A stretch of 54,694 nt of DNA, taken from NCBI GenBank assembly GCA_016180425.1, contig JACPBF010000016.1:1-54694 (forward strand), written 5' to 3'. Below the pieces are notes generated by a model that did not search any database, was not told the DNA's origin, and saw nothing but the letters and a program-made list of their open reading frames with translations. Source of the stretch: Elusimicrobiota bacterium. GTDB taxonomy: Bacteria; Elusimicrobiota; Elusimicrobia; 2-02-FULL-39-32. Each line of letters starts with the position of its first letter. The stretch's first letter is position 1. The translations under genes were made by a program, and so were the position numbers. Of the stretch, positions 21,001-51,950 are shown one piece after another.

Positions 21001-24000
21001 GGAAATAGTCAAACTTTACCGAAACCTAACTTTTCAAAAAGCAGAGGCATTAGGAAATTTTCTTGAAAATAAATTTTTAGAATATTTTTCTAAACTCGCT
21101 GCAACTTTGTCAGCCATTGTCGTATCTCTCTGGTTTGTTATTGGCGCTCCTCCTTCGGCTTTGGCAGCAGTAATAACAGGCAGCGCGCCTTTAGCGTCAC
21201 CTAGCGCTTTAGCTCTAGGAACCGCTACTTCTCTGCCTATAGCATCCTCTAGCGCTTTGCAGGCTGCTCATAGTGTAGGTGTTTTAGGATTGGATCCGGT
21301 TATGATGTTATTACCGTTTGATTTTATGTTAGTTGTTCTAGTGATAGGACTAACCTTCTCGTTCAATAAGAAATTTCAAGAGTTTGTATTATCAAAAAAG
21401 TTTGGTTGGCCTGTTATGTTGCCGGTGGGCTTAATGGCATTGATTGTGGCACCTTTGGCTTTTAAAAATGCCGGATTATTTTTAATATCATTACTACCAG
21501 CAGATGTCAAGCAAACAGATATTAAACTTTTATACAGCATACATTATTATTTGATCATCCCAATGGCGGTAATCGCAGCGATAGCAGGTGCAGAAATCTT
21601 TTCTAGTCTATTTATAATGAAACGCATTAAAAATCATCCTGAATTTAGAATTGATACTTCTATTTTGATTCGTGCTCAAAATTGGTCCATGGCTGGTGTG
21701 CTTGTTTTAGCCTTGTTTGGAATAACATTGGGTTCTTTTGAAACGCTTTCTTTGATAGGAGGAGAGCCAGAAGGATTTTTCTCTCTCTTGTTCATTCAGC
21801 TTAAGTCTAACTTAAATTCTCTGACAAAGTTCTGGCCATTTGTACTTGCCTCTCTTGGTCTAATAGCTGCAATAGCAATTTTTTGGTTCAAGCGATTTCC
21901 CAAGATTCAGCCCACAGATGATCCTGAAAGGATTGATCCAAGAAACACGCCCAAATCCGGATTTACTCTTTTGGAAACTGTGGGAACGGTTGCGATCCTC
22001 TCCATTGGTATAGCGGCGGTTGCTGTTTTTGGTATTCCTCATTTTTCTTTCTTTAAATTCGATTTACACGATTGGATGGTGCCGATCTTGAATGTGGGCA
22101 TAGGAGCTCTTTTCCTTACACTGATCATTGCGGATAGAGTGAGGAGAAATCGTGCAACACGCCCTGAATTTCCATATCAGCTTGGTATGTTAGGCATTTT
22201 ATCCCTTCTCTTGTTTAATTGGCCGTACTATATAATACCTCCTTATACTTCACAGTTTGAGCCAGGGGTAGAATCTTCCAAAATCTTGCAATCTGAACAA
22301 GATCAGAGCAGAGAAGGTCAAATTTATGAGTCCGCTACTCCGTCAGCGTCTGAATCCGAAAATATAGCACTATGGATCTTATTTCCAAAGATATTCCCTG
22401 TTCCAATTTTTATTATTGGTTTGGCGGCAACGACTGCGGCGCTGCTTTTTGGTTTTGATCCATCCGCGGCTTTCGCGGATGATGGGAAAAGTCTGTCATG
22501 GCTCACCATTCTCGCTCAATATGGACCATTTGCGTTAGTTGCAGGAGGCATTGCGCTAGTGTTGGCAATCGCTCTCAACAAAAATTTTCGTGAGGAAGTT
22601 GTTCTTAATTCAGGACAGTTGTTTAGATTAGACACTGTTTTTGGCAATGCGCTTCGAGTTCCTTTACTGGGCATGATTGCTGCCAGTGGCGGCGCAGCAG
22701 GGGGTGCTGCGGGAGACAGAGGCATTCCAACAGGTGATGAAAATGAAGGAGTTTCTATTGTAGAAACAAGGAAACAAGAAGCTATTGAGCGCTTGGCATT
22801 TGAGTCAATAGATGCTTCCTTTAATTCCTTAACCGCTAGAGTTGCTTTACGTTTAAAACAGATTGCAGAGAATGGCGGATTAACTGAATTAGATGAGAAA
22901 ACTTTGGAAAATATTGCGGTAGAAAGTTTAAAGGATTTAAGAGCAGCGATTGAAAAAAGATTTAGATACTTATTTTCAGAAAGGTCTATTTCTATTAAGG
23001 AGAGTGGTTTCAACATTCTGGCATTAGATCATTTTCTAATTAGAGAGATTTTGGATTGGATGAAAGCAGCCTTTAATGCTCTGGAAGCTGTAGTTGAGTT
23101 AGCATTGAATCGAATTGATGGAGAAATTAAATCTAAAGCAAGCGCAAGTAGCGGCCAAACTTCAAAAAGTCTAGAAATTGATACACGACAAGATTTTGAG
23201 CAAATTACCATAAGAGAATTCAAAAAAGCTGGGTTAGAGACAAAATTAACCGTTATTCCCACATTTTCCAGAACGCCTCAATCAAAACCTCAATCCGGAT
23301 TTACTCTTACGGAAGTAGTTTCAACCATTGTGATTCTCATGGTTGCCGCAGTTTTTGCTCCTTTCATCTGGTATTTTGCGCAAATTGAACCAATTCAGTT
23401 TCTTTTGTATTCCGTAACAGCCATTGTATTGGCCCCGGTAGTTGCCTTACTATTTGCTCTTGGAACAGAGATGAAGCCTGGAGCAGTGAAGAATTTTAAA
23501 AAGAGCAATCCAAACCTTATTCTTCTTTTGTTCAAACTTTCTGTGTTTGGACTATTGATCTCTATTGAGATCGCTTTCGCATTGGTAATTGTAGGTTCTG
23601 CGCTGAAGAATACCTATGATCTTTGTATGGAACAGAATACAGATGGTGCATGGATGTTAATGTTTGGAGTTCCCATCTCATTTTTTTCGTTTTTACCATT
23701 CCTTACTACTGTATCTTTATTATACGATCCCAAAACTTCTCTTATTCCTGATTATGTGATCAATAGATTGAAAAAGACAAAGAATTTAGAAACAATTTTA
23801 GATAGGGCTCTTCGCTCTGAATTCAATAGGGTGAAAGAGTTCGCAATTGAAGAGCTGGGACGGCGTAAGGCTATAAATAAATTATTTATATTGTTTGATA
23901 ATGAAAGAGTGTTTGATAATAAAATGAGGCTGCATATATTTAGAGCATTAGTTGGATCAATAGGTGGAGATAAAGATAGGTTGGAAGATCTTATAAAAAG

Positions 24001-27000
24001 AGTAAATGGTGAAAAGGATCAAGCATATCCCCAATCCATGATTAATGCTTTAACTGCGCTGGGCTCAAGGGATGCGATGCTTCAAGCTTTAGAGCTGGGA
24101 GATGAACGCATTTTTGTTTTAGCTAAAAAAGTTTTAGAAGAATGGAATGACCCTGCTCATGAAATATCTTTGGTGCCTGTTTATACAAGGATCGCAGGAG
24201 ACGTTACTAAAAAAAATGAAGTTCGATTAGCTGCAATTCGTGCATTAGGAGAAGGTCAGGCATCCACTTCTACAGAAGATTTTTTGATCTCTCTTTTAGA
24301 CAGTTCAACTAATCAAATCCATTTTGCTGTGCAAGAAGCATTGAAAGGAAGAGAAAAGCTAGATAATTACTATTCTAATCTCTTAGATCATCCAGAGGAT
24401 GAACTGATTTTTACGGCGTTTGATTACTTTGCAAAACATAGAGGTCCTCTTTCTTTAGTTCCAAAGTTAGTTCGATTGTTAAAAGATGTTGAATTTCAAA
24501 ATGAGGATGAGAGACGTACATCAGGTGAAATTGATATTTTTGAGTTTGATGATTTTGATGTAGTGCTCCCACTAGCTAGGACAATAATTTTAAGTGGTGG
24601 TACGGAATATAATCCTTTGTTGATGAAAATACTGCGAAAGTATGGTGGTGGTAATGCATTGGATAGGTGGAGTCTAGATGAGAATGGCAACCGGAGTGAC
24701 AAAACTCTATTTGATGATATTGTGGATAGACTATTAAAAACTAATCGTCAGGAAACACTCTCTTTTTTTACAGAGATTGGAGATTTGAGATCCATAAAGG
24801 TTTTAGGTAAGCATGGCGGGAAAGATGAATTAAACTTTTTGGTACAACCCTTTATAGGAATATCTGATCACTTTTTTAAAGATCAGAAAGACTATTTTGA
24901 GTGGAAAGATATTTGTGTTGATAGTGCGATCAAAGCCATTTGTAAGCGTGAGAATCTGAAGTCTAGATCATATCTATCTGCCAGAAAAAAAAATCAGAAA
25001 GGGAGTTTCCCTAATCAGAAAAGTTCTGGTCCTAATAGTAGCTCCACCACCCAAAAAGGATTTACGTTATTAGAATCTGTTTTCGCAGTTACGCTTCTTT
25101 TGGCTGCCGCAGTTTTTGTACCAGTTCTCTGGCGCGGAACTACAATGAGCTCTTGGTTAAAAATCCTCATGCAACATTGGCAAATAACATCTATCACAGG
25201 AGTAGTGATTATCTTTGCGACGCTATTGGTTTGGAATTTATTCTCTAAGAGAAAGAGAGTAGAGAAGGGTTCAGCTTCTATTGCTGTGAGCAGGCTTAAG
25301 CGGTTAAAGGGAGAAACATCTAGAGAGAGGAAGTCAGTCACGACTCATGTAAACAAGTGGTGGTTAAGTGCTTTGGCGGTCATGAAAATCGCGGTTCAAT
25401 CAATCGTTTTTGGTCTTATGGGAACTGCAGGGGGCGGCGTTGGAATACCAATCAGTGGCGCTGGCAAAGGAGCAAAGAGAATCCAACTCCAACAAGAAGA
25501 TTTAGATTTAATTGAATCTAAAATTAGCAGCATAAAAATTCGAATGATGCTGGAGCGTTTAGGCGCTGAGGCGTTTCCTAATGGCAGCATGGTGTGGATG
25601 AAAAAATGGACAAAATCGTTTCCATATCGAAACAGCCGAGACAGTAGGATCGGACATTTGGTCACAGCTTATATTCGGGTTGAATATAATGCCAAGAATA
25701 ATTCATTGTCAGTCATGATTGATCGTGTTTCAGGTAAGTACAAGGATTACGGTTTAACTGTTGATATTCCAATACGGCTGGATGGTGGAACAGGACTATA
25801 TTTTTTCTGGGATGGAAAAGAACTTGAAATGCAAACATGGGAGAAAGATGATTCTCAACCAGAAGGAAGAATCGTTACTTACAAGGTCAAAACCACAAAG
25901 CCTCTGGAGACTTTAGCTTTGGATGAATCACAATCGTCCCCAATTTTCACAATAGGTTTATCCAAGGAAATTATTGATGGTTTTAAGAGCCAAGGGTTCA
26001 GTCGTTTTTCAATGAAGACAATTCCTAAACCGGGGTTCCCTTCCATAGCCATTGAATTAAAGGACGCAGAGATAATCAAAGCAGAAAAGCAAAGGGTTCC
26101 TGTGATGACTATTGTATCCAGTCTTCTTGTGATTGGTCTAGTTTCAGCGATTATTTTTGGATTTGGCTTAAGCGGTGTTAGTTATGCAATAGGTCCAGGG
26201 GATCAGCTTTTGGGCAAAGGGATGGGTGAAACTCTTATGGCAGCATCCCCGCTCCTTTCTGTGCTGTTAGGAAATTTAAGGCATTTATATCAAAGAATTT
26301 TTGGTGAAGTTTTTCCACACGAACAGGAAAAAGCGGTTGAAGAGATGCTGGATGTTTTAAATAAAAATCATGCTCAGTTTGAATGGGAACAAATCAATAT
26401 TAGTTCTCTTCTTCCCGATGATTACGTTGGAAAAGCATATATTCCTGTTCGGGAGATTCATGGTCAGGGATTATTTGAACATATTTCACGCGACGGCAAT
26501 ATAAAGATTGAAAGGCATAGAGAAAAGGGGCCTGTTTCTGCTTACAGAAAAGCAGAGAATGAAAATTGGGAACGTCTGCAAGTGATAGGATCAGCCATTA
26601 GCGCCAACAATGCTCTGCCTTATTATAAAGTTCGCAATTCGAATGTTGCAATTGGTTTGGATAAGGATTTAGTTAAGATTTATGAAATTTCTCATTTTCT
26701 GCCTCATACTAAAAAGAGTATTTATGTTTTGGAAACCAAACAAGTTTTAAAGATTGAAGATCTTCCTTTCAAGAGCGCTCAAGTTTTAAAGTTAAAAGGG
26801 TCTAATCCAGTATCAGCTGAAAGAGCCGGGATTCAATCGCTTGCTGCCCTAGGAATTGAAAATCAAGAACTTTATATAGATCTTTTAACAGTTTATGTGG
26901 GAGGATTAAGCACAAATCAAATAGCTGAAAAGTCTGGTGTTAGCGAGAATGTGATTAAAGCATTTTTAGCTAGGTCTTTTGTGCCTATTAAATCAGAAAG

Positions 27001-29929: not shown

Positions 29930-29940
29930 ATTATGGGAAT

Positions 29941-30469: not shown

Positions 30470-30484
30470 ATTTTTCTCTTTTTA

Positions 30485-30513
30485 AGTATATAGTTAGAAA
30501 GTGGTGTTGTCAA
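30485..30513 (-). promoter_or_regulatory. Sigma70-type promoter of the MazF toxin-antitoxin operon
   Basis: On the minus strand, TTGACA (30508-30513) is separated by 17 bases from TATACT (30485-30490). The -35 matches consensus fully, the -10 in five of six positions, and the spacer is optimal. It sits just upstream of the antitoxin ATG at 30469 and predicts a leader of roughly 9 nt. Confidence 0.8.
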
Positions 30514-30564
30514 GGGCACGAATTGCTCAGTGAGAAGGGTGTAAAGTCTTAAGATGATTATGGA

Positions 30565-30801
30565 TTATTTAAATAAGAGGGCGAGTATGGCAATCATTTG
30601 GGTAATCCAGAGAGTCACCATCCATTTAAGAATATCAATTTTTATTTCTTTAAGTTCAGCTTTAGTGGCGAGCTTTTCAAATATCGTTTTGCTGTTTTCT
30701 TCTAAAGCTGTTTCAATTGCAGAAGCTATTACTTTAGCTTGCTGTTCATCGAAACTCTTGCGGAGAACTTCAAATATTTTCAAGGTATTTGCTATCGCCA
30801 T
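30565..30801 (-). CDS. Small coiled-coil membrane protein, DUF1640/CCDC90-like
   Basis: A 78-residue protein. The N-terminal part (L-K-I-F-E-V-L-R-K-S-F-D-E-Q-Q-A) has the usual opening of this group, with 'aF-x-E-x-Q-A' before a helical region. Next come L-A-T-K-A-E-L-K-E-I-K and a coiled-coil stretch, then a C-terminal membrane helix (W-M-V-T-L-W-I-T-Q-M-I-A-I-L-A-L-L-F). Such proteins are common in bacteria and phages and usually of unknown function. The stop (30565) is about 95 bases upstream of the toxin-antitoxin operon on the same strand; each has its own promoter. The ATG lies only 9 nt past the -10 box, so the mRNA is probably leaderless or nearly so. Confidence 0.75.
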   Translation of the reverse strand: MAIANTLKIFEVLRKSFDEQQAKVIASAIETALEENSKTIFEKLATKAELKEIKIDILKWMVTLWITQMIAILALLFK

Positions 30802-31064: not shown

Positions 31065-31175
31065 ATGATTAAGTTCTGGAATAAGAAAAGCAATAAAAGT
31101 TGGAAGCAGCTAACAGCGTCGTTAGTTGTGTTTTGTTTTTTGTTTAGCACCCTGAGCGCGCCTTTTGCGCAAGCT
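31065..31175 (+). other. Giant gene 2: Sec signal peptide
   Basis: Residues 1-37: a basic start (K3, K7, K8, K11, K14), hydrophobic core L-V-V-F-C-F-L-F and end A-P-F-A-Q-A|S, a textbook signal peptidase I site. The start of gene 3 has the same length and layout, ending M-P-F-A-E-A|S. Both mature proteins begin S-(F/L)-W-S-E-R-R-K-A-V-E-E. Conservation between the two supports both start codons and the cleavage site. Confidence 0.85.
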
Positions 31176-34100
31176 TCGTTTTGGAGCGAGCGGCGCAAAG
31201 CAGTGGAGGAATATAAGAAGTCCAATTCACAAAACTTAGGTTTTCAGGTGGCTTCAGCTGCTGGGTTTTCTGGCGCTGAGACAGGAGCTTTGGGATTGAA
31301 TTCTATCAGCAATAAGCTGGAAATGAGCGGAATTGAATCTAAGCTTTCATCTCAGGTAATGAATCGGGTGATGGATAAAGTAAAGTCCAGGGGATCTTCT
31401 AGGATTGCAAAAAGAGATCGCGTTTCCCTTGGGCTTCCTTCTGAATTAGTGAACCGTATAGAAACTTATGGTGAGATTGAACAGGTTTATTTATCCAAAG
31501 GCATGAATTTAAAAATGGAGGTTCATAAACTTGCGCTTTTTGGGCAAGCTCTTTCTCCAGCTTCTAATTCCTCAATTTCTTCTAATCCTTTTGTGATTTT
31601 GATTCAAGAAGCGCATGACATTTATGGAGTGCAGGCAAATATCGCTTATCTTTTAATGGATGCGATAAAAATGGGTGTGGAGATTGTGGGTGTGGAAGGT
31701 TCCCGCGGGATTATGCAAGGGATTGAGAAGTGGAGAAATCATCCAGATAAAGAAAGCGTCATGGGAGTGGCTGGTTATTTGTTAAAAGAAGGGCTTCTAT
31801 CTGGAGTAGAGATAGCGGGGTTGTCCACTCAGGGAGGAGATAAGGCAATTTTTGGAAGAGAGAAAGGCTACGCGCAAGGGTTGTCCACTCACAGTGGAGA
31901 AAGGTCTGTGCAGTTTTATGGAGTGGAAGATAAAGAACCTTATTTAGAGCAGGTAAAGAGTTTTAAAGATACTTTAACTTTTAGTCAGGAAGTGAAAGAT
32001 TGGCAGTTGGGTTTAGAGAAGAAACTAGCTGAATTAAAAGAAGAAACCTATACGCCAGAACTAAAAGATCTAGACCAATGGAAGAACGATTACGAAGCTG
32101 GCAATAAAAAACTGGCTGAATGGGTTGAATTTCTTCAGGTGACTCATTCTTTATTGAACAATCATTATCCAAATGTCGCTAAATATTTGAAAGCATACAA
32201 GTTAGAGAAACAGATTGATTTTAAAAAAATTGAAGCGGATCAAAAAAAGATTTTGCAAGCTTTAGCTGAAAAATTAAACCGAGGCGAATTAACAGAACTA
32301 TTGGAAGATAGTTTGTTATATCGTTTAGGCAAAATGGGGTATGGGGAGTTTTATGAAAGCATAAGAGAAAAGTGCAAGAACGCAAAAATTAAAATAACTC
32401 CTGACATGGAACGCTACATTCAATATCTGGTTGGAGTAGAGGGAATAGAAAGAGTCAAACTTTTTCAAGAAGTAAAAGAGTTAGAAAATGAAGTTTGGAC
32501 TATGGTGGCTGGGACACCTAGTGGAAGCCACAACAATCAAGCAACTGCTCAAGTTGTGCAGGCTGACAAGGATTACAGATTAATAAAGAAAGGATTGGAC
32601 TTTAAACTCAATGTTGAGGAATGGAAAGAGTATGTGAGCAGAGCGGATGAAATTGAATCAGGAATTTCCGCGCTCTCTCTTAGTCCATTTACAGGCGCAG
32701 TGAAACAAGCTTTGGAAAATGTAAAAAGATTCAATCAGCTGTCTGAAGAAAGAAACGAAATTTTCCTTAAAAATTTATTAGGCGCGATGAACCCCAAAGA
32801 TTCCCTGAGAACGCCTGCGCAGATTGTAGCTTTGGTGGCAGGAGGGTATCACGCGAGCGGAATTGAGGAAAGGTTAAAGAAAAAGAACATATCTTTTATT
32901 ACTATTCGTCCTAAAATGCAAAGCAGTGAGATTAAGAAGGAATATCATCCATTAAATAGTTTTAAACGCGACTTGCTTCCTTTAGAAAAAATGTTCATGC
33001 ATGAGAAAGTAACGCTTGCTCCGCAAAGAGCCATGGGGACTGTGGTTATGGATGGCGCGGTCATAAGCGAAATTGGAGTGGAAGGCGCATTGCGCACTGT
33101 GGTTCCAGTTTTGGGTTTTGCGCATGGAAGGGCGGATGTAGAAAATCAGATTGAAAATGAGAGAAAAGAGGAAAATAGCGCTATAGGAGAGGTAAGTCTT
33201 GAAGATGGGTCTAAATTTGAAGTAAAGGTTTTTGGCGCTGAGGCTCAAGTTCAAGAAGCAGAGGCTAAAGGCGGCGCAATAGAGATAGAGACAGATTACA
33301 GTTTTGTAGAAAATCAAGGCAAACCAGAAAAGCTAAAACCAGAACATGTTGTGGTTAAGGGAGTGGGAGGAAAATTTGGACGTATCAAAAAAACAGTGTT
33401 AGCCGCAGGCACTTTTGCAGCCGCACTTGTTGCTGGAATTATTATGCTTCCATCTCCCGGAGATACAAAAGAGTTGGTTAAAGAAATGGCTAAAGCAACT
33501 GTAGAAAATGCGCAAAAACATCCAGAGCCAAACTGGTGGTTAGTTCTGCTTGTAGCCGGAGCAGTCATTGCTGCTATCGTTTATCTTATAAGAAGTTTTA
33601 GGGGAGATATTCCCGGATCTGAAACTTATGTTTTGCATGGGTATGAAGCTCGAGATCTTATTAAGTCAGGTAAAAAATCTTATGATCAAGGAGATTATGA
33701 TCAAGCTAATAAAATTTTTAACGCAGCGGAACAGTCTTTAGAACGCGCGATTGACTTAGATTCAAGAGGAATCTATGGACGGTCAAAAGGTTACGATGAG
33801 CTTGCTGGGGTTTATCGTGGAACTGGTCAGGAGGATAGAGCAAACTTAATTGCTGGTTATCGCAGCGATGCTTATAAGTATCACCATCCTTCCTTACAAT
33901 TTGAATCCGCAAAACCTAAATCTCGTGGACGGCTTTCAAGAATGTTTATGCTTGCCCTGACCCTTCCTTTAGGAATAGGGTTATCTATTGCGGGTACAGG
34001 CTCTCTGGAAGCTATTACAGAGTATAGTCTAGCTGAGCAGGAATATTTCCGCGCGGATCCAAGAAGAATCACTCAAGGAAAAAAAACAATTGAACTTGAA

Positions 34101-37100
34101 GGCGCGCAAGTTAGAGTGTTACGAGAGTTAAAAGATTTTGAGGACTATTTGGATAAGATGGGTGTGTCGCCTGAATTGCGTGAGCAGGTTTTAGAAAGAT
34201 GGGATCAACACTATGCGGTCTTTGAAATTAAAAATGAAAAGCTTGGATACACGGCCTATGCTTCCATGCACCGTCTTACAAAAATTGTAAGCTTTGCGGA
34301 TTCCATTGATGGAACTTTTCGCGCCATGGGCGGGGTGCGGGTAAAAATTGACGAGCTAGATGAAACAAATATTAAACGCGGCGTTTATCTTTCTGACGCG
34401 GATGCTCTGGGAGATGCTTTGGAATTGTCATCGGAGATGAGCTTTAAAACTGCAATGGCTAATCTTAAAGTGGGCGGGGCTAAAACCGCGATCCGCATGA
34501 AAAAATCTGTGGCGGATAACCAAGAAACCCGTAAAGCCGCTCTCTACAATTTTGCCGCGGTAACAGAAGCGTTGGTTCCTTACCTAAACGGCGGATTTTT
34601 AACTGGTAAAGATGAAGGAGTTACGGATAGTGATATTTTAGAGATGCATAAATTTGCTCCTACTTCCATTATTCCGCATGTGAGCGCTCACCTTGCGGAA
34701 GGCAAAGGGAAAGAGCCTTCGCGCCCGACCGCCATAGGAGTTTTGAGCGCCATGAAAACTCTGGCAGAACATCAATATGGTTCCAGCAGTTTGGTTGGTA
34801 AAGTCGTGGCTGTGCAGGGGCTTGGGGATGTGGGCGGGAGTCTTGTAGATTTTCTTATGAAAGAAGGCGCGATCGTTGTTTTTGCTGATTTAGAGAAAGA
34901 AAAGTTAGATAAATTTTTAAGTAGGTATCCACATTACAAAGGTTTATTAGGTGATCGCTTATTTCCGTTGATTGGGAAAGACGCGGATTATCTTTTTAAC
35001 CCACTTGAACAAGGTTCTCCAATTAAGGATCAATTGGAGGCGCGAGGCATTCACAAAATAAATATATTTTCGCCTTCCGCAGCGCGCTGGCAGGTCAATG
35101 AGAACACAATTCCAAGAATTGCAGCAGCAGGAGTAGATATTATCGTCGGCTCTGCGAACAATATGGTGAAAGACCGCAAGAAAGACTCCGAAACCTTGAT
35201 GAAGCTCAATATTACTCTTTTTCCGGATTATGGGGGTAACCCTGGTGGAGCGATTGTGGCGAACGGCCATTTAAAAGGAAACAATATTTCCAATGAAGCG
35301 ATTTACGGGTTAGTTAAAGATAACACCAACAAAATTATTGAGGAAGCAAAATTAAGAGGAGTGACGCTTCTCGTGGTTGCGGATGAATTAGCAAGAAAAA
35401 AATTCAATGAACTGCAAAAAAATGCTGGCGCGCCTTTGCCAATAGGACGTGAGACTTCCGATCTTGATAAAGATATGGAGCATGAAGAGTTCATTATTCC
35501 ACATGAGTTTACTGTGGCTTTAGGCCCTTTACCAGATAGAGATTTTAATAGTTTTGTGATGATGGTGAGGGATCAGGCTTCTTCCAAAATTAGGGCTATC
35601 TTAGAAGGGAACGATGTTGAAGATGGAGAGAAGGAAGAGAAAATCATCAAACATTTAACCAAACTATTTGCTTCCACAGGAAAGATCAAATCCATTCAAG
35701 TTCTGAATGAGGATCGTAAAGAGATTCTTGGACATTATGAATTCAGCTATCTTTCGGACGGCGGTTATTACCGCGTGGAGCTGCTTCAGGAGAAATTTGA
35801 TTTAGTGAACAAATCGAATTTAGCGGTTGGAACTTTTATAGCTATTTACGATTTGGAGAATAATTTGGTGGGTTCAATCGCTTTCATCAACGGGCCGATT
35901 ACAACCATGCTTGTTACAAACGGTAAAGATCAGATAAAACATTTTGCCTACAATGGCCAGGAATTTGTATTGCGCGAAGATAAGCTGGACTTATCTAAAG
36001 CAACGAATAAAGATAAATCTCCCGCTGCTTTAGGCGGTAACCTCATAAAATGGCCCGCTCCATTTCAACAATATTACTTAAGCCATGAGAGGGCTATCCC
36101 AGGATCTGATGGAGCCTCGTCACCGCTTAAAACGCGTTATGGCGGAGTACGCGAGGAAAATACCAACAGGCAAATTTCAGCGCTTGGCGCCAACCTTTAT
36201 GAAATTTTAATTAATAACGGGTTTATGGCAGAGGGGTTATCTCCGTCTGTCTCCAGACTTATTGCATCTTTTGTAAAGGCCGCTGGCGGCGACGCGGCTG
36301 CATTGACTTCAAAAGGGTTTCAAAAGATTGAGGACGTCCCTATGGATGAACCAGTGGTGCATCTCTATGCGGGCAACATGGGTGTGGTTCAAAAGATAGC
36401 GGAAGATCCAAAATTTAAGGAACCTGCGGACCTCAATCTATTGAGAGAGAGCCGAGCTCCGCCTGAAGAAGTGATAGATATGTTTAGCCCGATTGAAATA
36501 GAGGATTCTATTGAAGAAGATACTCTTGAATCAACCCTCCTCAAACTTCTTCCTTCAACAGAAGAAAATCAAGATATTATTAACGCCATGTTGGCTGTAG
36601 AGCAAGTTGCCGCGCTAGTTCCCGGTCTTTATGTTACCGGAGGCAAAGCAACAGGAGAGGTGGATTCCGGCGGGGCTGATCAAAGAGAAATAGACAATAT
36701 CACGGACGGGCTTTTTGCTTCCGCGGTAAAACCATATGTTTGGGCGTATCATTCTGAAGAGGGGATGATCAATTATGAGGATGGAGAAGGGAAAATTTTT
36801 GCTTTTATTGGGGATCCTCTGGACGGTTCTACAAAGGTAAAATCAAACGGAGGCGGGGGAACCATTGGCGCATTTTTACATCTTCCAAATTCACCGGATT
36901 CCGATGGAAAAAGAAAAGAAGGTCTTATAGAAAATGCAAGCGGAAGAGATATTGTTGCATCATTTTTTGTGACCTATGGAGTGGAGACAAAACTTGTGTT
37001 CGCATATAAAGGTTTAGGAGCGCGCGAGTTTGTGTTGAGGGGCGGAAAATTTCAGTATGTGGGGCAAGTTAAATTTGACTCCGCAGAAGATCAGAATAAA

Positions 37101-40100
37101 CCGATTCGCGTTGCATTGGGCGGTTCTCGATCCAAGTGGCCGCAAGGTTTCCCTGCTTTGAACGATCAATGGGAAAGTCAAGGGTGGGTTCAGGGTTATG
37201 CCGGAGCTATGGTTACGGATATGTATGGAGCGATCCAGCATATTCTAGGTGGAGGCAGGGCAGTATTTGCATATTTGGAAAATAAACTTAGGGTGCGGTA
37301 CGAAATCGCTCCCATGGCGTTTATTATGGAAGAAGCGGGCGGAGCGAGTCTTACGCACGATTGGGGCGAAGGAGATAAAAATCCACAGGCGGTGAATGTA
37401 AGAAGTGTGTTGGATATAAAATTTAGATTTGAGAAAGATCAAAAAGCTCAGCAGAAAGCTCCTGTGGCTTTAGGTGACCGCGCCACCATTGCGCAAATTC
37501 GCCGCGCCATTGAGAGAGATTTAAGCGAAATTTTGAGTTCTAAAGGTTGGCCCGAAGATATCGCGGCTGCCTATGCGAGCGAAGACTATCTCAAGATTGA
37601 ATCCATTGCGATGGATGAGAGTCGCGAATATGGGGAAGCGCATCGCAAAAAAGCTGATCAATCTGTTGAGGCTTTGGTTGAACTTATGAAATCTGGGAAT
37701 ACTAGCATGGAACCTGTTTTCTACCTTCAGGTTTCAAGAGCGATTTACAGAATTGCCACTAAAACCACGCTTGTTGGAACTCAAACCATGACAGATTTGC
37801 ATGGTATTTACGCTAATTTAAGAACATCCGGTAAACTGCCTGGAGATGTTTTGTTTTTTATTGCAAGGAATTTTAATTTGATTGTTTCAGTTAGAGGAAT
37901 CCGCGGAATAACTTTTAGCTCGCTTACAGGACCTCTTGATCCTGTTGAGGCAGAGAGAAGACTTGCCAATTTATTAAAACAATCTAATACCGGTCGTATA
38001 GTCGCTGGGGATAATGGTGAGGGTGGATTTACTTTTTCGGAATTTATTCCGGCTTTAACGGTTTTCTTTGCGGCAGTAGTTTTTGCGCCTCTTATGTGGC
38101 GCTTTGCATTAACGCACGCTTTCAATAAGAATTTCCGTGGAGCAGTAAACCAGTTGTTCTCTCTTCGTACATGGCAGATGGCGGTTCGGTTGGGTGCATT
38201 TGGGGCTATGGGTGCGGTGGGAGAATCAGGCTCGTCCGATAGCGGCGCGAAGCGATCGATTGCCCAAATTCTTGGATGGAGTGCGGAAGAACGCGGGAAT
38301 TTTCTGAACCTCCTATTCTCAATTTATTTGGTCCAAAGATTACTGAATTGGTCGGATAAATGGTATGAAGCTCCTCTCATGAGGGATTCAACCGAAGTTG
38401 AGGAATCAGCCAGGGTGGTTGCGGATGCCAAGAGGGCCGGTATGGCAGGAATTTATTATAGTAGGGATTTAAGGAAAATCTATGATAAATCGCTTGAGGG
38501 TGGACGCATTATTTCTGCTTTTGCCATTGCCTTGAATGGAATGGCGGCAGGGGTCGAGGGGTTTGCGGTAGACGATGCAAGAAAACCAATTGGGCTCGCG
38601 ATTGAAGAAAAAGATTTCCGATCGCTTGGGAAAATGGTGAGGTTGATCAATAGAGAAGGGTTGGTGGGTTTTAGCGATTCCGAGATAGAAACATGGAGAA
38701 ACCTATTGTTCCAAAATGGCATTACTCCGCAAGAGGAAGCGCCAATCGAACATAAGACTATCGATTATTATGATGAAGCGTTTTTGGGCCGCATCGATAG
38801 CGTTAGAAAAGTTAAAGAATTCAATGCGGAACAATTTAAAGATCTAATTGATCAACTCATAAAACAATCCAAAGAAGGTACTTGGTCCCCTGATAGGGAC
38901 ATAATTTGGGAAGCGCAAATCTTAATGCTCGCTGCGATAAGAGCGCGTAAGGAGGGCATCGCTGACGAAGATTATAAGAGATGGTACCTGAAAATCGTTG
39001 GCACCCAATATTTATATCATATGTATAAGTCCTTCTTTGTGCAACCGGCGGTGAATGCCATCTTAGAAGAAGCGGTTGATAACGGAATGTCGTGGGTAGA
39101 TGGCGAGGTGGTTGATTCGCTTATTGATTTTTGGATTCTGGAGACGGCCGATGATCCATGGTACGGCTTAGCATCATTCGATGAGTTCATTGAGTATCCG
39201 GAAATTGCAAGGAGAATGGGTACCGCAGACCCGTTGAAGATGAAGAGAATACTGCTTGGGCTAAATCAATTCGCTCTAATTCCTCAGGCCAGAGCAAGTT
39301 TTGCAGTTTCAGTATTTGGCAACCAGCGCGCACAACTGGCTCGTCCAGAAACAGATGCTCTTCTATCCAGGGCGATCGAATTGGTCTTTTCTCACAGAAA
39401 AAATCTCTTAGATTTTTACACCCTGTTTGTACAAGAGAACAGTAGCGAGGAAATCATAAGATTTCTCTCTAATTTGGAAGAGTTGGAGTCGCAGAGGAGC
39501 GTTGGAACTGCCGGAAGTGATGAAGGGACCGGATCAACAGCTGAGAAAAAATACGGTAGTTCTGGACCCAGTGTGCCCGGGAACGGTTTTACTTTGGCGG
39601 AATCTGTTACTGTGTCCGCACTTTTTATTACGGCTGTAGTTTTTGCGCCTCTTATCTGGCGCTTTGCATTAACGCAAATATCGTTTGTTGCTGGGGTTGC
39701 GCAGTTTGTCGCGCTTCATGCAGCGCCCATCGCATTGATTGTTGGCGGAGTAAGTGTAGCGCTTCTTTACGCTTTCAATAAGAATTTCCGTGGAGCAGTA
39801 AACCAGTTGTTCTCTCCACGTACATGGCAGATGGCGGTTCGGTTGGTAGCATTTGGCGCTATGGGTGCGGTGGGACGCGAAGGTACTGGCACATTGAGTG
39901 AGGATGTGAAAGAAGACTCTGCTGGAAAAACGGAAGTTGTGGAGACAGGAGTGCGAGTTGAAGTGCGGGTGGAGACTCAAGACAAGGGACAAACTATAGT
40001 GGCAGATAAAGTTGTTAAGACAACTGCTGCCAACAAGCATTTTTTAGGTATAAGTCAATTTCCGGATGGCGTCTATGATGCTGAATTTCCTATTACAAGC

Positions 40101-43100
40101 TTTTTAATAGGAGCAGGTGCATTGGCATCCAGCTTTATGCATGCGTTGCAGACAGCTTTGAAGTTGATCGTACTGGGCTCTTTGGGCGCTCTTGGTGGCG
40201 GCGCGGGTGGTATGCCGGCAGATGAGGCGGGATTACCAGTTGGTGATACGGGTGAGCCTACTGATAAGGGCGGTTCTCAAGAAAAGCCATGGAAAAAAAT
40301 TACGAGTTTTGAGGATGCGGTGAAGGCATGTGATATCTTTTATAGTGTAGTTAAGAGAAGAAAAGGGCTCAGTTCTACACTACTAGAAACTCAGAACGCA
40401 CTGGCAATCTTGAGGAATCTTACTTATACCTATCGTCCTTCACATCCGGCATATGAGTTTCGTCTTAGTTATCGGATAGAAGAGAATTTCATACTTTTAA
40501 TTGATGCTAACGAATTATCGGGTGAAAAACGTTTTAATATCACTTATGAGAATGGTTTTGGTGTTTATTTAATTGATGATCAAACCGTTATTCTGGAAAC
40601 GCCGCAAGGTACTGTAATGATTCAGAGGCAGAGCGAAGAAGGAGGCGATAAATTTAGGGTTGAGCTTATTCTAACCGCGGAAGGTCAGCCAGTAAATGCA
40701 GTGCCGACCGATTCGCAGATTGCTGAAGCAGAGACGTTCGCTAAGGAAGCCAATATTACTAGCGATGAAGATTTTAAGAATCTGGTAGCGATGGGTGTTC
40801 CAAGTGCGATGGAGATTTACATTGAAAGAGTTATTCGATCAATGGGGATGAGGGTTACAGATAGGGAAGCTTTTCATCTATTTGTTGAATCATATGAGGA
40901 TACGGTCGCTCGATTTGTCTCTTTGCATACGAAAAATCCTGACATGATATCTCATACTGTTCTTAAACAAGAGGAACGGTCTTTATTTATGTTGATGCTG
41001 ATGTTGGATTCTGGTCGAGGTAAGTGGCTGGCAGTGCCTTCTAGGGATCCGGCAGAAATGGAATCATCTGAAATAATGGATGACGAAATCGCGAGCATTG
41101 TTTGGCCGTTTCGTATTGGGAGAGTTCCATCAACAGCAGCTTGGGAAGTTTTAAGTGATGCGTTTTGGGTTTATGAGGGGAAATATTTTGATCAGGCTGT
41201 AAGTTCCTTTATGGAATGGTGGGAAAATGTGGAACTGGAGCTATTTCCTAGCGGTAGTTCTATGGATAGTTTCATGAAGTGGAAAAAAGACAAAGATAAT
41301 ACGGGAAAATCATTGATAGAGCTTTACGCGGAGTGGTGTTTTGAAATTGATCAGGAATATCGGAAAAATCCTGAGTACAACAAGTTAGGGTTCGTGACGT
41401 CGCTTTTTAACGACGGACGATCTCTTTATTGGCCGGTGCATGAAGCGCTGTTCGCAACATTAGAACGCAAATCAACGGAAGGAGACGAAAGAGCTGGAGA
41501 AATCCTTTCTGAAATCGTTGATTTGGAAAATGCAACCTTCAGGATATTTAAGGTTCAAGTAAAGGGTGGAGGTGAGGTAAGCGCAGAAAGAATGATTAAT
41601 ATTATGGGTAGAGGAAAAAGTTCCAAACCAAGGGCCACACCTGAGGGTGGATTTACTTTTTCGGAATTTATTCCGGCTTTAACGGTTTTCTTTGCGGCAG
41701 TAGTTTTTGCGCCTCTTATGTGGCGCTTTGCATTAACGCATGGGGTTGCGCAGTTTGTCTCTCTTAACGCAGCGCCCATCACCCTGACTGTTGGGGGAGC
41801 AGCTTTAGTTTTAGTCGCGCTTTTTGCAGTTAAACACCATTCCAACTTAGGAACCGCGCTTGCTCGATTCACAGCGCCAGACACGGCGTTTGGAAAGATC
41901 ATCCGCGTCCCGTTATTTGGCGCATTGATGATGGCTGGCGGCGGTATGGGCGTGCTTGACGCGGGTAGCCAGAAAACAGATGTTGCTTCCTTATTTCACA
42001 ACAGTGTTCAGTTGCCTGATCAGTATAAGGGCGATGCGGACTTATATGATTCTTTATTAAATTACTGGGAGAGACAAATTAAAGGGGAGTCCTCTGATAC
42101 GGCTAGAATTTTGGCGTTGGGCCACTTCATTTCGAAAACGGGCAGACGTTACAACAGAACCCAGTCTTCAATTGATTATCAGTTATCTCAGATGACGTAT
42201 AGAGAATTAGCTCAAATTGCCAATGCAGATTATAAATTGCGCGAAAAACTAAGAGAAGAACATTTAAGCAGCCATCTGAGCGCAGAAGATTTGGCATTGA
42301 TAACGGAAAAGGAGAAATCAATACAAAGCATGGCGGCTCAGACTCTTTTACAGCCGTATGAAAAGGTAGGAGTCCATCAAAGCTTAATTCCGGATTTCTT
42401 TAAACCGGTTGCCATAGACGCTTACCTGCTAGTAGATTCCGTGAAGTTAACTGTGGAATTTCGTCTTGTATTATTGAGAAAAGTAGTCCAAGAAGCTAAA
42501 AACTTATTTCGTGGTTTAAGACGCAAAGGCTCTGAATGGGTTGATAGTTTAGGGCAGCGCTACACTCAAAATCAAATGACTCAGCTTGGCAATTTTAGGT
42601 TTACCGGATATTGGTTTGATTGGGTCTCTTTGGCGATGGCCGGTCATATGAGTGGTTTTTCAAAAGGATTAGACCTTGGAATTAATGCTCCCGCAATTAA
42701 AGACTGGAGCGAAGAAGACCAGTCTCATTTTGCGAATCTTGTTCATTATATCTTAATAGTTCAAGATGAACTTAAGAGGTCTGGGATCAAGGAAGGAGAC
42801 GATGGGAAGTTATCTTTTAATATAGAGTGGGTTAGAGGTTATTTGGAGATCATGATTGATGTTAAACGGAATGGTATGGTTGGAGTCAAACTCCCTAACA
42901 TAAAAAGATTATTCGATGCTGCGCTTTCAAAATCTCATGATGTCCATGTAAATAATTTTGGGAAAATTGCAGAATCCGCTCAAAGAGCTGGCGTAGATGG
43001 ATTTGATGAAGAATATTTATCATCAGTAGAATCAAATGTTGCGAGTCGAACAAGATGGTTGCCAACCGACCTTAAGTACGTTGAGTATGAAAAATTCGTA

Positions 43101-46100
43101 ACGAACTCTAGTCCGCAAGAGGTAGAAAACCGCATTATGGAAGCCCTTCAAAAAACTCCTCGTAGTCTCGATGCCGCGGAGTATAGAGAAGCGCTGGATC
43201 TGATGGAAATAGCCGTTCAACAGCGTAAAGAGATTAGTGATGAAGGGTACTTGAGTCTCTATCAAGAGTTCCTTAAGACTGAATCTTGGTCCAACAAAGG
43301 TCATTCAAGGTTTGGGAGTGATTTCATAGTTCTAATTTTGGGAGAGGCAATCAGTTCAGGCAGGAAATGGATGAGCGTAGAAATGGTTAAGCGATGGGCT
43401 TTTGATCGCGGAGCTTTTACCAATACCGCTTGGACGGACAGTCTCCTTGTTCCTGCGGTTCAGCATGGAATTGTAAGCGATCCTAAAATAATTAGGGAGT
43501 GGATTAGCCGTTTAACATCTCTTGGATATCCCACAAGCGCCGCGAAGATTGCGGCCGCTGCCTATTCCAACGAACGGAAATTGATAAAACGAGACGATGT
43601 TGAAGAAACCCTTGAGAAGGCGGTTGGATCTTTACCAGCGGACGGGAAAGCAGATCTTTTGAGAATATTCAATACAAATGAGGCGCCAACGATCACCGCG
43701 GAAGGCAAGTCGCAGGGAAGTTCTGGTGCACAGATCGTTACCGGAATAGTTGCGCTTGTCGGTTTAACTGCCGTGCTTTCTGCTGGACTTATTTTGTCTT
43801 CACAACTTCCCGGTGGCGCTGAAGTTTTACACTCCGTTGCTTCTGTTGCCGGAGCAAAAGCGAGCGCGGCGGGCGCGATGGGCAACTTGCATTTTGATTC
43901 TTCGTTGATGAAATCAATTGGTTATGGCGCGGTGTTAGGTTCTCTCTCCTCTTTCTGGGGCGGCAAGTTTTGGAGTAAAGCGCCGTCCGAGGTTCAGTTG
44001 GACGTGCGTCAAGCGGATGAGGTAACTGCGATGTCGCAGGAAGAGTCTTGGGGAAGGCACCCAACTCATGTATGGTACGATGAAATCTACAAAGGTATTG
44101 GGTTAACCAGTATTTTGTTAACTGTTGGGGGAGTCTTGAGTATTAGCGCCATTCTTTGGGGATTTTCATTTGGAGATGTCGCGAATGCTATGGGGCTTGG
44201 CGGGGCTTTGCCTGTGGCACAGGCCGCGAGCTGGGGCTCTGGGGCGGTGCTTGCTGCTGCTTCTGGTTTAATTAATTTTAGGGAGCAGGCGCAAAAATTG
44301 GTGATTCGCGAAGATATTTGGAGAAAGTATCCGGAAATTTTTGGCAATAGAATTGTCAACGGGCGGCCTGTGGGAGTGGAAGACCTTATCAGGAAATTTA
44401 CTCTTCAATTTGGTCCAGAATTTTCCGATCGTTTAAAAGATCGCAGAGATTTCTTAAAAGCTGTTGCGAATGGAACTGCAAAATATGGTTTCCAGCCGCT
44501 GGATGAGGTATTTGAAGATCCAGATGGAGAAGAATTGACTGTAGAAGAAATAAGAGAGCGTTTAAAAAATAATTTCTATGGCGCTGAAGGCAAGGAGGGC
44601 TGGAGATTAAATGATAAAACTCCTGTGCCTCAAGAAGTTTTGCGCCCTGGATTGCAGGGAACGGGACCCGCGCACGCTTTAAGAATGATGATGAGCGCGA
44701 TCAACGCCAAGACCTCTTCTTGGATGTTCGACTGGGAAGACGCAGGAGACGACTATGATGATAAACTCTACCGGGCTTGGAAAAATTTAAAAGAAGTTTT
44801 AGCCGGAAAATGGGAAAACCGCGAATATACGGAAGGCGGAAAAACATCTTCGATAAAACTTCCGCGCGGGGAGTGGGGATCTATTTTCCACCGCTTGCCT
44901 GGTCTCGGCATTAGAAACAGGCAGATGTGGATTGGAGGGGAAAGAGTTCCAGCCACGATTGCGGCCATGGTGATTCATGTTTTAAATAATTATGAATCCT
45001 TAAAGAAGAATGGCTCTGGAATTTATTTCTATATTCCAAAAATTGAGACCCCGCAAGAGGCATTGCTTATCGGCAAATTGTTGAAAGCTCTGGAAGAAGA
45101 AATTGGTGTGCCTAGAGGGACTATAAAAATCGAGATGCTGCACGAACGCATTCGGTTTACTCAGAACCAAGAGATCATCATGTGGGTTTTGCGAGATTGG
45201 CTGATTGGACCTAATGTTGGACGTTGGGACTTTATTGCCAGCCGTGTTGAAATGGGTAAGGACGATCCTAAAATGGTTCTGCCTAATCCGCATGACATGA
45301 AGATGACAGAAGCCTCTATGACAGAATATACTCGCAGAAACGCGATTCTTACTGTGTTGGCTGCGGTAAAAAATGGGAAGATGGTGAACGGCATGCCCAT
45401 TGGCGGAATGTCCGCGGTGATGGAAAGAAATGTTCCTGAAGAAGGGGAACCAAGAGAAAAAATGCTTGCCGCAAACGAAAAAGCAGTTCGAGATATCTGG
45501 TTTGATAAACTACGCGAACGGTTAACGGGTTTGATTGAAATTAATGGCATTCAATACGACACCTATCGCCAGAGCTGGGTGGCAACCATTACGGAAAAAT
45601 ATGTGCGTTCAGGTGAAGAGCCTTTGATCGCTTCATTGGATGAATTGCAGGGATTGGTAGATCGGAGTGATGAGAGCGAACTGAAACGTTTAAAAGATTT
45701 GGGTTTGGTCAATGAGCTTGGCAGGATTCAATACTACGTTGTTACCAAAGAGGATATAGATAATCTCTGGTCACCTCAAAAGTGGGACGATCTCACTCGC
45801 GTTCCGAAGGGGGATATTTCCATTGACGGCATTGAGTACGCGGCCACCATGTCCGCAGAGTATGGTTTTGGTGTGCTGAATGGAAATCAAGCTGTTAAGA
45901 TTTTTGACTATAAGAGCGATAACGGAATGATGAACGACTTTGCCACGCACGAAATCTTTTGGCATTGGATGTGGACTCTTGCCAAACATGAAGTTGTCTT
46001 AACCAAAGATGGAACCATGCGGGATGGCACTGTAATAAAAGCTGGAACAAAAGTTACCCCTGAACTTCTTAAGATGGTGCTGGATAAAGTTTATGTTTCC

Positions 46101-49100
46101 GCTGAAAAGAAGATTGACTATCTTGAAAGCCAAGGGCTTTCCAAAAATGACCGTAGATTTTCTCCGCTCATCATGAAAATTTTGGAGCGCCAGCTTATTA
46201 TTGACAATGGAGACCACACCTATTCCATGCAGAATAAGTGGGTGACATACGGTTCCCGCATCCTTCTTTCTATCATCGAACTGGATCCAGAAAAAGACGC
46301 GAAACTCATTGACCAAATCTTGGACGCGGTTTACAGCGATTCCAGAAAAGATGTGGCAGAAAAAGTAAGGTCAGGCGAGTGGGATAAAAAAACTTTGGAA
46401 GCTTATGATTATGTGTTTGATAATCCGGACGCAAGAGAATTCGGTTCTGTTCAAGGAATAGCTAGAAGAGTCTATTCTCATTTTGTAGGCGGGGCTAAAA
46501 TTGCGGGCATGACTTCTTGGATTATGAAAATGAGACAAAATATCTCTACGCTTGATCAATGGATGAAATCAGACCGATTTATCCGTATCCATAGGACTCG
46601 GCCTTATTCAGCTCGAGAAATTTATGCTATTCGCGGCGCTGTGTTAGACGATACAACTTTTCATGATCTTATGACAAGAAAACTTTTCTTCCTTATGGGA
46701 GAAGCTCAAAGGACTGGTATCCCTATTGTAACAGGAGGGGTGATGGACGGCCCTTCTGCCGCTGCAATGGCGCAAAAAGGAATGAAAGCTCTTTACTTTA
46801 GCGGCTGGCAAATGTCGCATCACTGGGGTGAACCAGACTTGGCAAAGTATCCGGACGATACAGTTCCAAATAAAATTTACGAGATCAATCATTATTTGCG
46901 CAATCAGCACGAAGACCAAATAGGTCGTTATAAAGAGATGTCTGATAAGCTGGAGGATATTTTTAAGGAATTCTATAGAACCCTTCCTAGAACTAAAGCA
47001 GACGATTTAGTGCTGCGCACGGAAGTTAGAGATGAGTTCATAGAAAAGTTTATGAACGCAGTGAAAGACGATCTTCCGATCTTTGTGGATGAGTTAAGAG
47101 AAGATTCAGAAACCGTGCTTTACAATCTTTTTTCAGAAATTGTGGTGCAGGCAATCGCCCAGTATGTAAGCCAAGGAAGGATCGCTCATGAACAAAGAAA
47201 TGCTCTGAGGGAAACAGTATTCCAAACTTTGGAAGGCTACCTGATTGATTATTTAATTCCGTTTTATGCGGATGGAGACACCGGACATTTATCGCCGGAA
47301 AAACTGGTTCAATATTTTGTTCGGGCTGGGGCAGCAAGCATACATTTAGAAGATCAAGCTGATGGGGAAAAGAAGTGCGGCCACATGGCTGGTAAAGTTT
47401 TAACTTCCATGAAAAAGCATTTTCAAAGACTTTTGATAACTAGTAAGGAGAGGGATCGGCTCCATTCAGAGCTTCTGATTATTGCCCGAACCGATGCCCA
47501 GGCCGCAAAGCTCTTGCAGAGCAATGACGATCCCATGGACCATTATTTTATTCTTGGCTCATCAGTAAAAAATCTTCCTTCCTTAAAAGATGTGATCCGT
47601 TTGGCAAGAGGAGACATGCCTGAGTATGCTTATCGCGGGGATAACGAAGCGCTTATTGACCGAGCCAAAGATTTAATGGCCCGGGTCAATCATCAAGAGC
47701 TTGAGAATATCTTGCTTCCCAAAACTCCTGCGCAGGTTTTAGAGATGTGGGAGCAAGAATTTCCTGAACTAGCTAAAACCATTCGTGATATTTGGAAATC
47801 TACAGGAAGAATAGATGGAAAAAGATTGGAAACTGATGTTTATTTTCTTAAAGTCAAAGATCCTCGGTCAACTGAAGATGGCAATTTGTTAACTTACAAT
47901 ACGGTTTGGGTGCATCGGGAACTGATTGAACATGGAGAATATCCTTATCTTGAACTCGACACTTTAATGGAAGATGAAAACGGCAAAGAGGTGACTGTTA
48001 AAGAACTTTTAGAAAGGGAACCAGTTCATCTTGCCAAAGAAGAAGCTGCCTTGCAAAAATTGACTGAAATCTGGAGGGCGGAAGCTAAACTTAAAACTTA
48101 TTCTCAAGCAGTGGGGGAGAAGATTCTGGAGATGAGAACATCCCGGTTTATTTCTGAACAGGGTAGAGAAAATATTAAGAAATGGTGGGAAGATGCCACG
48201 AATCCTTTAACCAACACTCTTTCTCTTAATCAGATGAAGTCTCTTGCTAAAACAATTGGAATTGAAATTGATTGGGATTGGGATAAGCCAAGGGTTTATG
48301 AAGGTTTTTATCAAATTGACAGTGGGTTAGGGGTATTAAATGCTTCTATTCGGATGAGACAGTATGCAAAGATTGCGGATGTGGCATGGATGGAACAGGA
48401 CAGACCTAATATTAAGCATGCCAGAGAATTCCATGACAATGTGGTAAACGATCCGCACAACCCTGAGTCAAAAAGTATTATTTTTGCTCTAAATCTTTCT
48501 CCATCTTTTAACTGGAGCGATCCAGAAGGATGGTCGGCTGTTCTAACTAAAGAACAGATTGAGAATATAAAGAAGGCAAAGTTATTAAAAGGGTTTAAGT
48601 GGAACAATCCAAATAGTTGGGGAGAATATGGAGATGATGTTTTAGTGATGTTAGAAGCGATTGCTAATTTTAGCATAGATATGGGCAGAGCTGGTTTTGG
48701 ATTCCAGTTTGTCACTATATTTCAAGATCATACCAGCACGCTTCATATCTCTAGAACCGCAAAGGAGATGTTACGCTTAGGCGCAGCAGGATTTGTCTTT
48801 AATGTTCAGCAGATGGAACAGTTAGATGGGGTTATATTCGAAAAGCATCAAACTGCGGCTGGAGTGAAAAGAGTCAGCAAAGGAGAACGTGTTATCATGC
48901 GAGGCTCTAATGCTACTGGAGCGGCCGGCAAAGATTCCACAGAAAATCAGTTTGGGGCAGGCGATGATTCTAATAAAGTAAAACGCGGATTGATCTCGAT
49001 GGATGATGCCAGCTTAAAAGAGTTTGCGGAAAATTCTCTGATGGTTGCTTCTTGGCTGGGAACTGTGGGATTGCCTGCGGCAATTGCTTTTGGAATTATA

Positions 49101-51894: not shown

Positions 51895-51934
51895 AAGGAA
51901 ACGACAGCTGTTATTTTACAGCTGCCTTTTCCTT
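51895..51934. terminator. Intrinsic (probably bidirectional) terminator between giant gene 2 and the zinc-finger antitoxin gene
   Basis: AAGGAAA and CAGCTGT are mirrored by ACAGCTG and TTTCCTT around a TATTTT loop, giving two stacked 7-bp stems with a small internal mismatch. It begins 38 bases after the giant gene 2 stop and ends 17 bases before the stop (51951) of the opposing minus-strand gene. A-rich and T-rich flanks occur on both sides, which suits termination from either direction. Confidence 0.8.
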
Positions 51935-51950
51935 AGTTCAATGAAAGCTT

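Follow-up and report, generated by a model that had tools for sequence, protein, structure and literature searches.

Membrane-hinge repeats as probable recombination points between in-frame modules of two giant genes in an Elusimicrobiota genome

Results

Two giant genes and their sister orthologs

Copies of a membrane-hinge junction very probably recombine with one another and, in doing so, shuffle whole in-frame modules of two giant open reading frames (ORFs). Both are encoded in the window, i.e., the stretch of 54,694 nucleotides analyzed here. Comparison with the closest relative shows that one junction is chimeric, that a cassette was gained or lost at a junction and that one module has moved; some paralogous junctions are nearly identical. 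On this comparative sequence evidence, hinge repeats appear to have added, lost and moved in-frame segments since the two species split, and the locus would illustrate one route of giant-gene growth.

The window is one contig (C33) of an Elusimicrobiota MAG that comprises 43 contigs (2.6 Mb). The two giant ORFs, of at least 9975 aa and of 6930 aa, are:

2..29929, + strand: ORF1, giant gene of at least 9975 aa, truncated by the contig start (the sister ortholog has 10747 aa), with modules resembling PPDK and phosphomannomutase, HEAT modules and hinges
31065..51857, + strand: ORF2, giant gene of 6930 aa (the sister ortholog has 6139 aa), with a Sec-type N-terminus and with modules resembling glutamate/leucine dehydrogenase, FBPase, malate synthase and isocitrate lyase, set apart by membrane hinges

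The reference for comparison was the closest relative, sister species RIFCSPLOWO2_02_FULL_39_32, in which the giant ORFs are orthologous (84-92% identity) and collinear outside variable zones. A search of 98 relatives with the FBPase-K1 region (E ≤ 1e-10) gave no match outside the genus, and a scan of genome contigs with the K1-K4 protein sequence found no relatives. Because the locus is present in two genomes only, without an outgroup, several events could have run in either direction. A gene for RecA was also identified in the genome.

Layout of the junctions and modules

The junctions share a layout in which a prepilin-like helix with the motif GFxxxE is followed by a second helix, a basic hinge of the NKNF type and a tail rich in glycine, and they stand between modules of both giant ORFs. 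All copies are in the same frame, thus recombination between non-equivalent copies can insert, delete or move modules without breaking the ORF. Spacings between repeat copies are all multiples of three. The hinge presumably tolerates such joins because it serves as linker and membrane anchor. In ORF2, junction copies (K1 to K4) flank modules M1, M3 and M4:

38018..38116, + strand: K1 helix 1, GGFTFSEF and a hydrophobic helix, an exact copy of K4 helix 1
38117..38222, + strand: K1 right half, NKNFRGAVNQLF... hinge, 95% identical to the K2 right half, without the 93-bp helix 2
38247..39569, + strand: M1 cassette, a predicted all-helical module with paralogs in both giant ORFs
39585..39659, + strand: K2 helix 1, GFTLAES..., containing the crossover interval 39642-39650
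39677..39769, + strand: K2 helix 2 segment of 93 bp, missing in K1 and retained in the sister K1 ortholog
39770..39875, + strand: K2 right half, ortholog of the sister K1 right half
40080..40200, + strand: K3 hydrophobic/glycine-rich hinge, collinear with the sister to about 40200
40260..41639, + strand: M3 cassette, without a counterpart at the sister locus
41642..41740, + strand: K4 helix 1, identical to K1 helix 1
41741..41960, + strand: K4 helix 2 and hinge
42675..43649, + strand: M4, a paralog of M1

M1 has no Pfam match and only insignificant sequence matches in the PDB; the best Foldseek matches to its all-helical structure model were no better than E 0.04. A mobile element (transposon or integron cassette) was considered as the cause of the rearrangements and rejected, as no inverted repeats of at least 40 nt, including terminal repeats of modules, were found in the 36-44 kb region at the settings used.

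A chimeric junction resolved to nine base pairs

Left of 39641, K2 matches sister K2 at 29 of 30 informative sites, whereas right of 39651 it matches sister K1 at 30 of 31 (Fisher P = 4e-15). The switch point is confined to 9 bp, 39642-39650 (TTTGCGCCT), within helix 1. By these matches, K2 is a clean chimera of two sister junctions. With only 9 bp identical today in this one resolved interval, microhomology joining and homologous recombination are not separable, and the crossovers may have taken place without the long homology of the classical mechanism.

One intact sister junction (K1) corresponds to the left flank of window K1 together with the right half of window K2 and K3. The right halves of window K1 and K2 are 95% identical to each other and approximately 85% identical to the sister, and a 33-bp stretch of the sister junction is missing from both; this points to a duplication in the window lineage.

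Loss of a helix in K1

The first-pass annotation described K1 as a near-copy of K2 that lacks one helix, and this was borne out. K1 38116-38222 aligns to K2 39769-39875 with 95.3% identity, and the K2 segment 39677-39769 (93 bp, 31 codons, with the second membrane helix inside it) has no equivalent in K1. The sister K1 ortholog retains the 93 bp (diagonal shift from 17745 to 17838), thus the loss is derived, a deletion in the window lineage. The ACGC microhomology proposed for the breakpoints did not hold up: both ACGC copies are kept in K1 (TTAACGCACGCTTTC), where the join overlaps by a single nucleotide. Had the two ACGC motifs been the breakpoints, 97 bp would have gone and the reading frame would have shifted. 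The first-pass annotation took K1 itself for a chimera of K4-like and K2-like junctions, but the cleanest recombinant is K2. K1 is the orthologous junction, with a 93-bp helix loss and with a helix 1 apparently homogenized with K4.

The 99-bp repeat shared by K1 and K4

As first reported, 38018-38116 and 41642-41740 are identical at 99 of 99 positions; the match is maximal, extending by 0 nt on either side. It is the longest exact repeat of the window, where simulated sequences yield 15-18 bp, and only these two exact copies were found in the 2.6-Mb assembly. K2 helix 1 is related at only 79% DNA identity. The sister has junction pairs of its own, at 89-91% identity.

Selection for an identical membrane segment, rather than recombination, is barely credible as the reason for the K1/K4 identity. 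The GFxxxE motif and helix are conserved across junctions, as such selection would predict, but the identity extends to every one of the 18 fourfold-degenerate sites (0/18 differ, compared with 26-30% between species; P 0.002-0.004 under an age equal to the species split), and the helix 1 DNA of K2 has diverged from that of K1. Protein-level constraint therefore cannot account for it.

Local gene conversion among junction copies, with the modules static and differing by ordinary divergence, would make the 99 bp a conversion tract. The unrelated outer flanks of the two identical helices agree with this, as does the finding that K1 helix 1 matches one of the sister's ORF1 junctions better (82%) than it matches its ortholog (approximately 73%). 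Conversion alone leaves unexplained, however, the exchange of flanks at K2, the changes of module order and the presence or absence of cassettes in both ORFs, and M3, so we consider it unlikely as the whole account.

That the assembler produced the 99-bp identity or the chimeric K1 is less probable still. The MAG is fragmented, the final 2 kb of the window are 93-97% identical to the end of another contig (C10), and 99 bp is near a short-read k-mer size, so that a consensus could hide a few true differences. Nevertheless, two direct copies and one linear path with all flanks leave FBPase-99-M1..M3-99-M4 as the sole possible order, and the 1-nt overlap at the K1 join is too little for a k-mer misjoin. 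In addition, the K1 left flank and the start of helix 1 are orthologous in the separate sister assembly, and the same process is visible in ORF1.

Cassette and module differences in ORF1

The following ORF1 features bear on module exchange:

10070..10399, + strand: junction with the motif GFTVFE
14881..16320, + strand: module in a different order in the sister (counterpart g1rc 26698-28005)
21959..22034, + strand: junction with GFTLLE, PF07963 above cut-off
22590..25241, + strand: cassette of 2652 bp (884 codons), missing from the sister, where its flanks adjoin
23297..23371, + strand: junction with GFTLTE, PF07963 and TIGR02532 above cut-off
25058..25132, + strand: junction with GFTLLE, TIGR02532 above cut-off

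Sister positions 41234/41235 adjoin, and their window equivalents are 2652 bp apart, in frame and at a hinge. Together with the placement of M1 and K2, this cassette exhibits the gain or loss of modules bounded by junctions that the first-pass annotation had proposed looking for between strains, here seen between species. In a breakpoint list compiled by hand from the synteny map, 9 of 15 breakpoints are within 60 nt of a membrane helix (14% expected, P = 4e-5); breakpoints 17325 and 17416 are far from any helix. Of the idea that junctions serve as recombination substrates without frame loss, the chimeric K2 and the gain, loss and movement of modules in both ORFs speak in favor; its microhomology component is the part that fails.

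Less likely than gain here, though possible, is that the sister lineage lost cassettes by junction-to-junction deletion; the order in the window would then be the ancestral one, with no gain in its lineage. The sister join at the ORF1 cassette, an LNKN half-junction followed by a KRKRVE half-junction, resembles a deletion product. Against loss alone stand the duplication indicated by the K1 and K2 right halves and the derived state of the 93-bp deletion. Because loss would itself need recombination at junctions, it is a variant of the main explanation.

Under junction recombination with gain, K1-M1-K2 would have arisen in the window lineage when a junction downstream of M1 crossed over unequally with the one that follows FBPase, which would have left a tandem duplication and a chimeric K2. 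Trimming deletions, including the helix loss in K1, may have followed, and helix 1 of K1 and K4 may have been homogenized. A tandem-duplication history requires later losses.

Prepilin-like motifs within giant ORFs

Seven junctions begin with the motif of type IV prepilins, GFxxxE plus a hydrophobic helix, a feature that the first-pass annotation of the repeat does not mention. GFxxxE motifs stand directly before a helix in 15 of 23 cases (4% background, P = 4e-16). K1, K2 and K4 score below the curated PF07963/TIGR02532 cut-offs. The motifs are internal to the giant ORFs and not near the N-terminus of a pilin-sized protein. One prepilin peptidase gene (PF01478) was identified in the genome. 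None of 11 sampled ORFs of at least 2000 aa from other Elusimicrobiota has GFxxxE before a helix, thus the prepilin-type junction is not a general feature of giant genes. It is conceivable, although doubtful, that the junctions are working prepilin-peptidase sites at which cleavage between G and F would release membrane-anchored enzyme modules from polyproteins, the same segments doubling as in-frame recombination points. Within the literature collection searched, no paper dealt with internal prepilin sites in giant proteins.

Discussion

The locus bears on how bacterial genes grow to tens of kilobases. Here, two species display the steps in between: a chimera narrowed to 9 bp, a cassette that only one of them has, a moved module, and recently homogenized junctions. 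These make module shuffling at defined hinges directly testable, and the recurring prepilin motif raises the question of post-translational processing of giant ORFs.

Modular NRPS/PKS genes are also giant and are rearranged in frame via recombination of homologous stretches. There the homologous stretch is a catalytic domain, whereas in the window it is a short prepilin-like membrane hinge between modules of unrelated kinds. The hinges resemble type IV prepilins (PF07963, TIGR02532) in having GFxxxE followed by a hydrophobic helix, and some pass the curated cut-offs; type IV pilins, however, are short proteins with a single copy of the motif close to the N-terminus, whereas in the window ORFs it recurs internally and a second helix often comes next.

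The tandem Giant1-5 surface-protein genes of Apilactobacillus kunkeei owe most of their diversity to intragenic recombination, whose hotspots lie in regions of helical repeats (PMC12863079). In that system, the recombining copies are positional homologs in different strains, and between genes of the same cluster recent gene conversion was not observed (PMC12863079). In the window, by contrast, membrane hinges form the junctions, non-equivalent copies within the locus would recombine, and module content changes.

Very long ORFs that encode many transmembrane helices are likewise known from candidate lineages: from Omnitrophota, with a Velamenicoccus ORF of 39,678 aa (PMC10066038), and from Elusimicrobia, whose giant genes are cited in PMC12057145. 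The portions of these reports considered here interpret them as adhesive or surface proteins in which few domains are annotated and describe no module-exchange mechanism (PMC10066038, PMC12057145); the window ORFs differ in carrying domains like enzymes of central metabolism. Intragenic recombination between repeats is known, but the shuffling of giant-gene modules by prepilin-like membrane hinges looks new.

Sister genome and giant ORFs

The only same-genus genome found is taken to be that of Elusimicrobia bacterium RIFCSPLOWO2_02_FULL_39_32 (the sister). RecA is 96% identical to its counterpart there and 78-80% identical to those of the next MAGs, which places the organism in the Elusimicrobiota. 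The sister locus encodes three tandem giant ORFs (10747, 6139 and 8021 aa) and is collinear with the window outside variable zones, at 84-92% DNA identity. Sister positions prefixed g1rc refer to the reverse complement of contig C16, 200001-300000. The adjoining window ORFs are:

2-29929: ORF1, at least 9975 aa, truncated by the contig start
31065-51857: ORF2, 6930 aa, carrying both 99-bp repeats

Domain matches in the window are to PPDK, phosphomannomutase domain III, HEAT repeats, Glu/Leu dehydrogenase, FBPase, malate synthase and isocitrate lyase (ICL); where tested, most lie far under equivalog cut-offs. PPDK, phosphomannomutase, FBPase, malate synthase and ICL are spread across both ORFs (2-8161, 33801-38000, 44100-48500) and fit one pathway logic, in which acetate would feed gluconeogenesis through the glyoxylate shunt. 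Both the KKCGH motif of ICL and the DPLDGS motif of FBPase are retained. ORF2 begins with a Sec-type signal peptide, however, which would direct soluble enzymes out of the cytoplasm. The ORF2 N-terminal domain (31065-33254) is a member of an extensive paralogous family that has 19 matches in this genome and 22 in the sister; a search of 98 genomes recovered it in 19, frequently within ORFs of 2,000-12,000 aa.

Prepilin-like junctions

The membrane-hinge junctions within ORF2 (K1 to K4) separate modules such as M1 and M3. Helix 1 starts with a GFxxxE motif, which is GFTFSEF in K1 and K4, GFTLAES in K2, and GFTVFEV, GFTLLET, GFTLTEV or GFTLLES at ORF1 junctions. In most junctions it is followed by helix 2, then by an NKNF-type basic hinge and a glycine-rich tail. 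Of 23 such motifs in the four orthologous giant ORFs, 15 stand immediately before a helix (background 4%; P 4e-16); the arrangement is absent from 11 giant ORFs of other Elusimicrobiota genera. PF07963 scores above cut-off at junctions 21959 and 23297, as does TIGR02532 at 23297 and 25058. Neither model matched K1, K2 or K4, so what likens them to prepilins is the shared motif and how they align with the other junctions. The genome has one prepilin peptidase gene, for which the junction motifs are candidate cleavage sites. Among the papers searched, none combined prepilin peptidase, internal sites and a giant protein.

Window and sister giant ORFs both contain members of the helical-module family to which M1 belongs. 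AlphaFold2 models M1 as all-helical (mean pLDDT 76), and structural comparison gave no significant match. No counterpart of M3, or of the sister-specific stretch, was found at the other species' locus. A further giant ORF of 10906 aa (G000:C18:580001-640000; L040/L041/L042) has one internal prepilin-like segment (RRGFTIVEVVVSGLAFF) and an M1-related stretch.

Age of the 99-bp repeat

The first-pass annotation had reported that 38018-38116 (K1) equals 41642-41740 (K4), and nucleotide self-comparison of the window shows this repeat to be exact and maximal. It is the window's longest exact repeat; with one copy removed the longest is 47 bp, and Markov simulations give 15-18 bp. Apart from the two exact copies, the 2.6-Mb assembly contains only one further match, K2, at 79%. 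All 18 fourfold sites agree between K1 and K4, whereas 26-30% differ between window and sister in collinear ORF2. Had the copies existed since the two species separated, such agreement would have a probability of only 0.002-0.004, so their homogenisation or duplication is recent. Constraint at the protein level cannot account for identical synonymous sites.

A repeat-induced misjoin cannot have given a false order, since two direct copies with four distinct flanks permit a single linear order. The 3.6-kb loop may still have a different copy number, and the assembly may hide a few differences between the copies. The contig end (52979-54694, in the last 2 kb) shares 93-97% identity with that of contig C10, which suggests that the assembler halted at hard repeats instead of joining across them. 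The starts of ORF1 and ORF3 are nearly identical. The window start probably follows on from C10, and the window end may continue into C6.

Helix loss and probable recombination at K1-K3

K1 (38116-38222) and K2 (39769-39875) are 95.3% identical, and K1 does lack 93 bp of K2 (39677-39769, 31 codons), encoding ISFVAGVAQFVALHAAPIALIVGGVSVALLY, the second membrane helix. The ACGC microhomology proposed for the breakpoints proved wrong. K1 retains both ACGC copies, so the two parents overlap by one base at the join (...TTAACGCA/CGCTTTC...); a deletion from one ACGC to the other would take out 97 bp and disrupt the reading frame. The alignment diagonal against the sister shifts by exactly 93 within window K1. 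The sister K1 therefore has the 93 bp, and on this alignment the loss is derived in the window lineage. A single predicted helix is left in K1 (38018-38222), which would flip the membrane side of all downstream parts relative to two-helix junctions, unless helix 1 is non-crossing.

A single full junction comes after FBPase in the sister (from g1rc 55763 onward). On the left it carries the flank seen at window K1; on the right, its second half and the subsequent K3 are the ones found at window K2 (diagonal 16185, mostly 85-91%). K2's own left half is instead 92-97% identical to another sister junction (g1rc 59062-59240), matching it at 29 of 30 informative sites up to 39641; from 39651, 30 of 31 match the post-FBPase junction (Fisher P 4e-15 for the switch). 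This parental switch falls within 9 bp (TTTGCGCCT). The K1 and K2 right halves are 95% alike, compared with about 85% for either against the sister, and the sister junction has a 33-bp stretch that neither contains; their duplication thus apparently dates to the window lineage. Sequence just past K1 resembles the sister K3 end (78% over 75 bp), a likeness that is weak by itself. We infer that one unequal crossover could have produced a tandem duplication, later trimmed, a history that would account jointly for K2, for the duplication of the right half and for the K3 remnant.

Probable module shuffling elsewhere

The proposal that junctions mediate module shuffling is supported by the second genome, with events read from the two-genome comparison. 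In ORF1, a 2652-bp stretch (884 codons) lies between window positions 22589 and 25242, whose sister counterparts, 41234 and 41235, abut. At that join in the sister, an LNKN half-junction runs directly into a KRKRVE half-junction. The sister counterpart of window 14881-16320, at 26698-28005, occupies another place in the order. Among 15 breakpoints taken by hand from the synteny map, nine lie at most 60 nt from a predicted helix (14% expected; P 4e-5); the breakpoints at 17325 and 17416 do not fit this pattern. Near-identical junction pairs also exist within the sister (91% over 137 bp, 89% over 106 bp). Order swaps also occur between ORF1 and ORF2, where 29938-30514 and 30565-30707 are swapped relative to sister 48378-48954 and 48222-48364, and comparably at 51905-52175 and 52567-52656.

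PMC10066038 describes the giant ORFs of Omnitrophota as surface or adhesive proteins whose function is unclear, and Elusimicrobia giant genes are mentioned in PMC12057145. Although recent conversion between genes of one cluster is absent in Apilactobacillus kunkeei, its giant genes have been shaped by intragenic recombination (PMC12863079).
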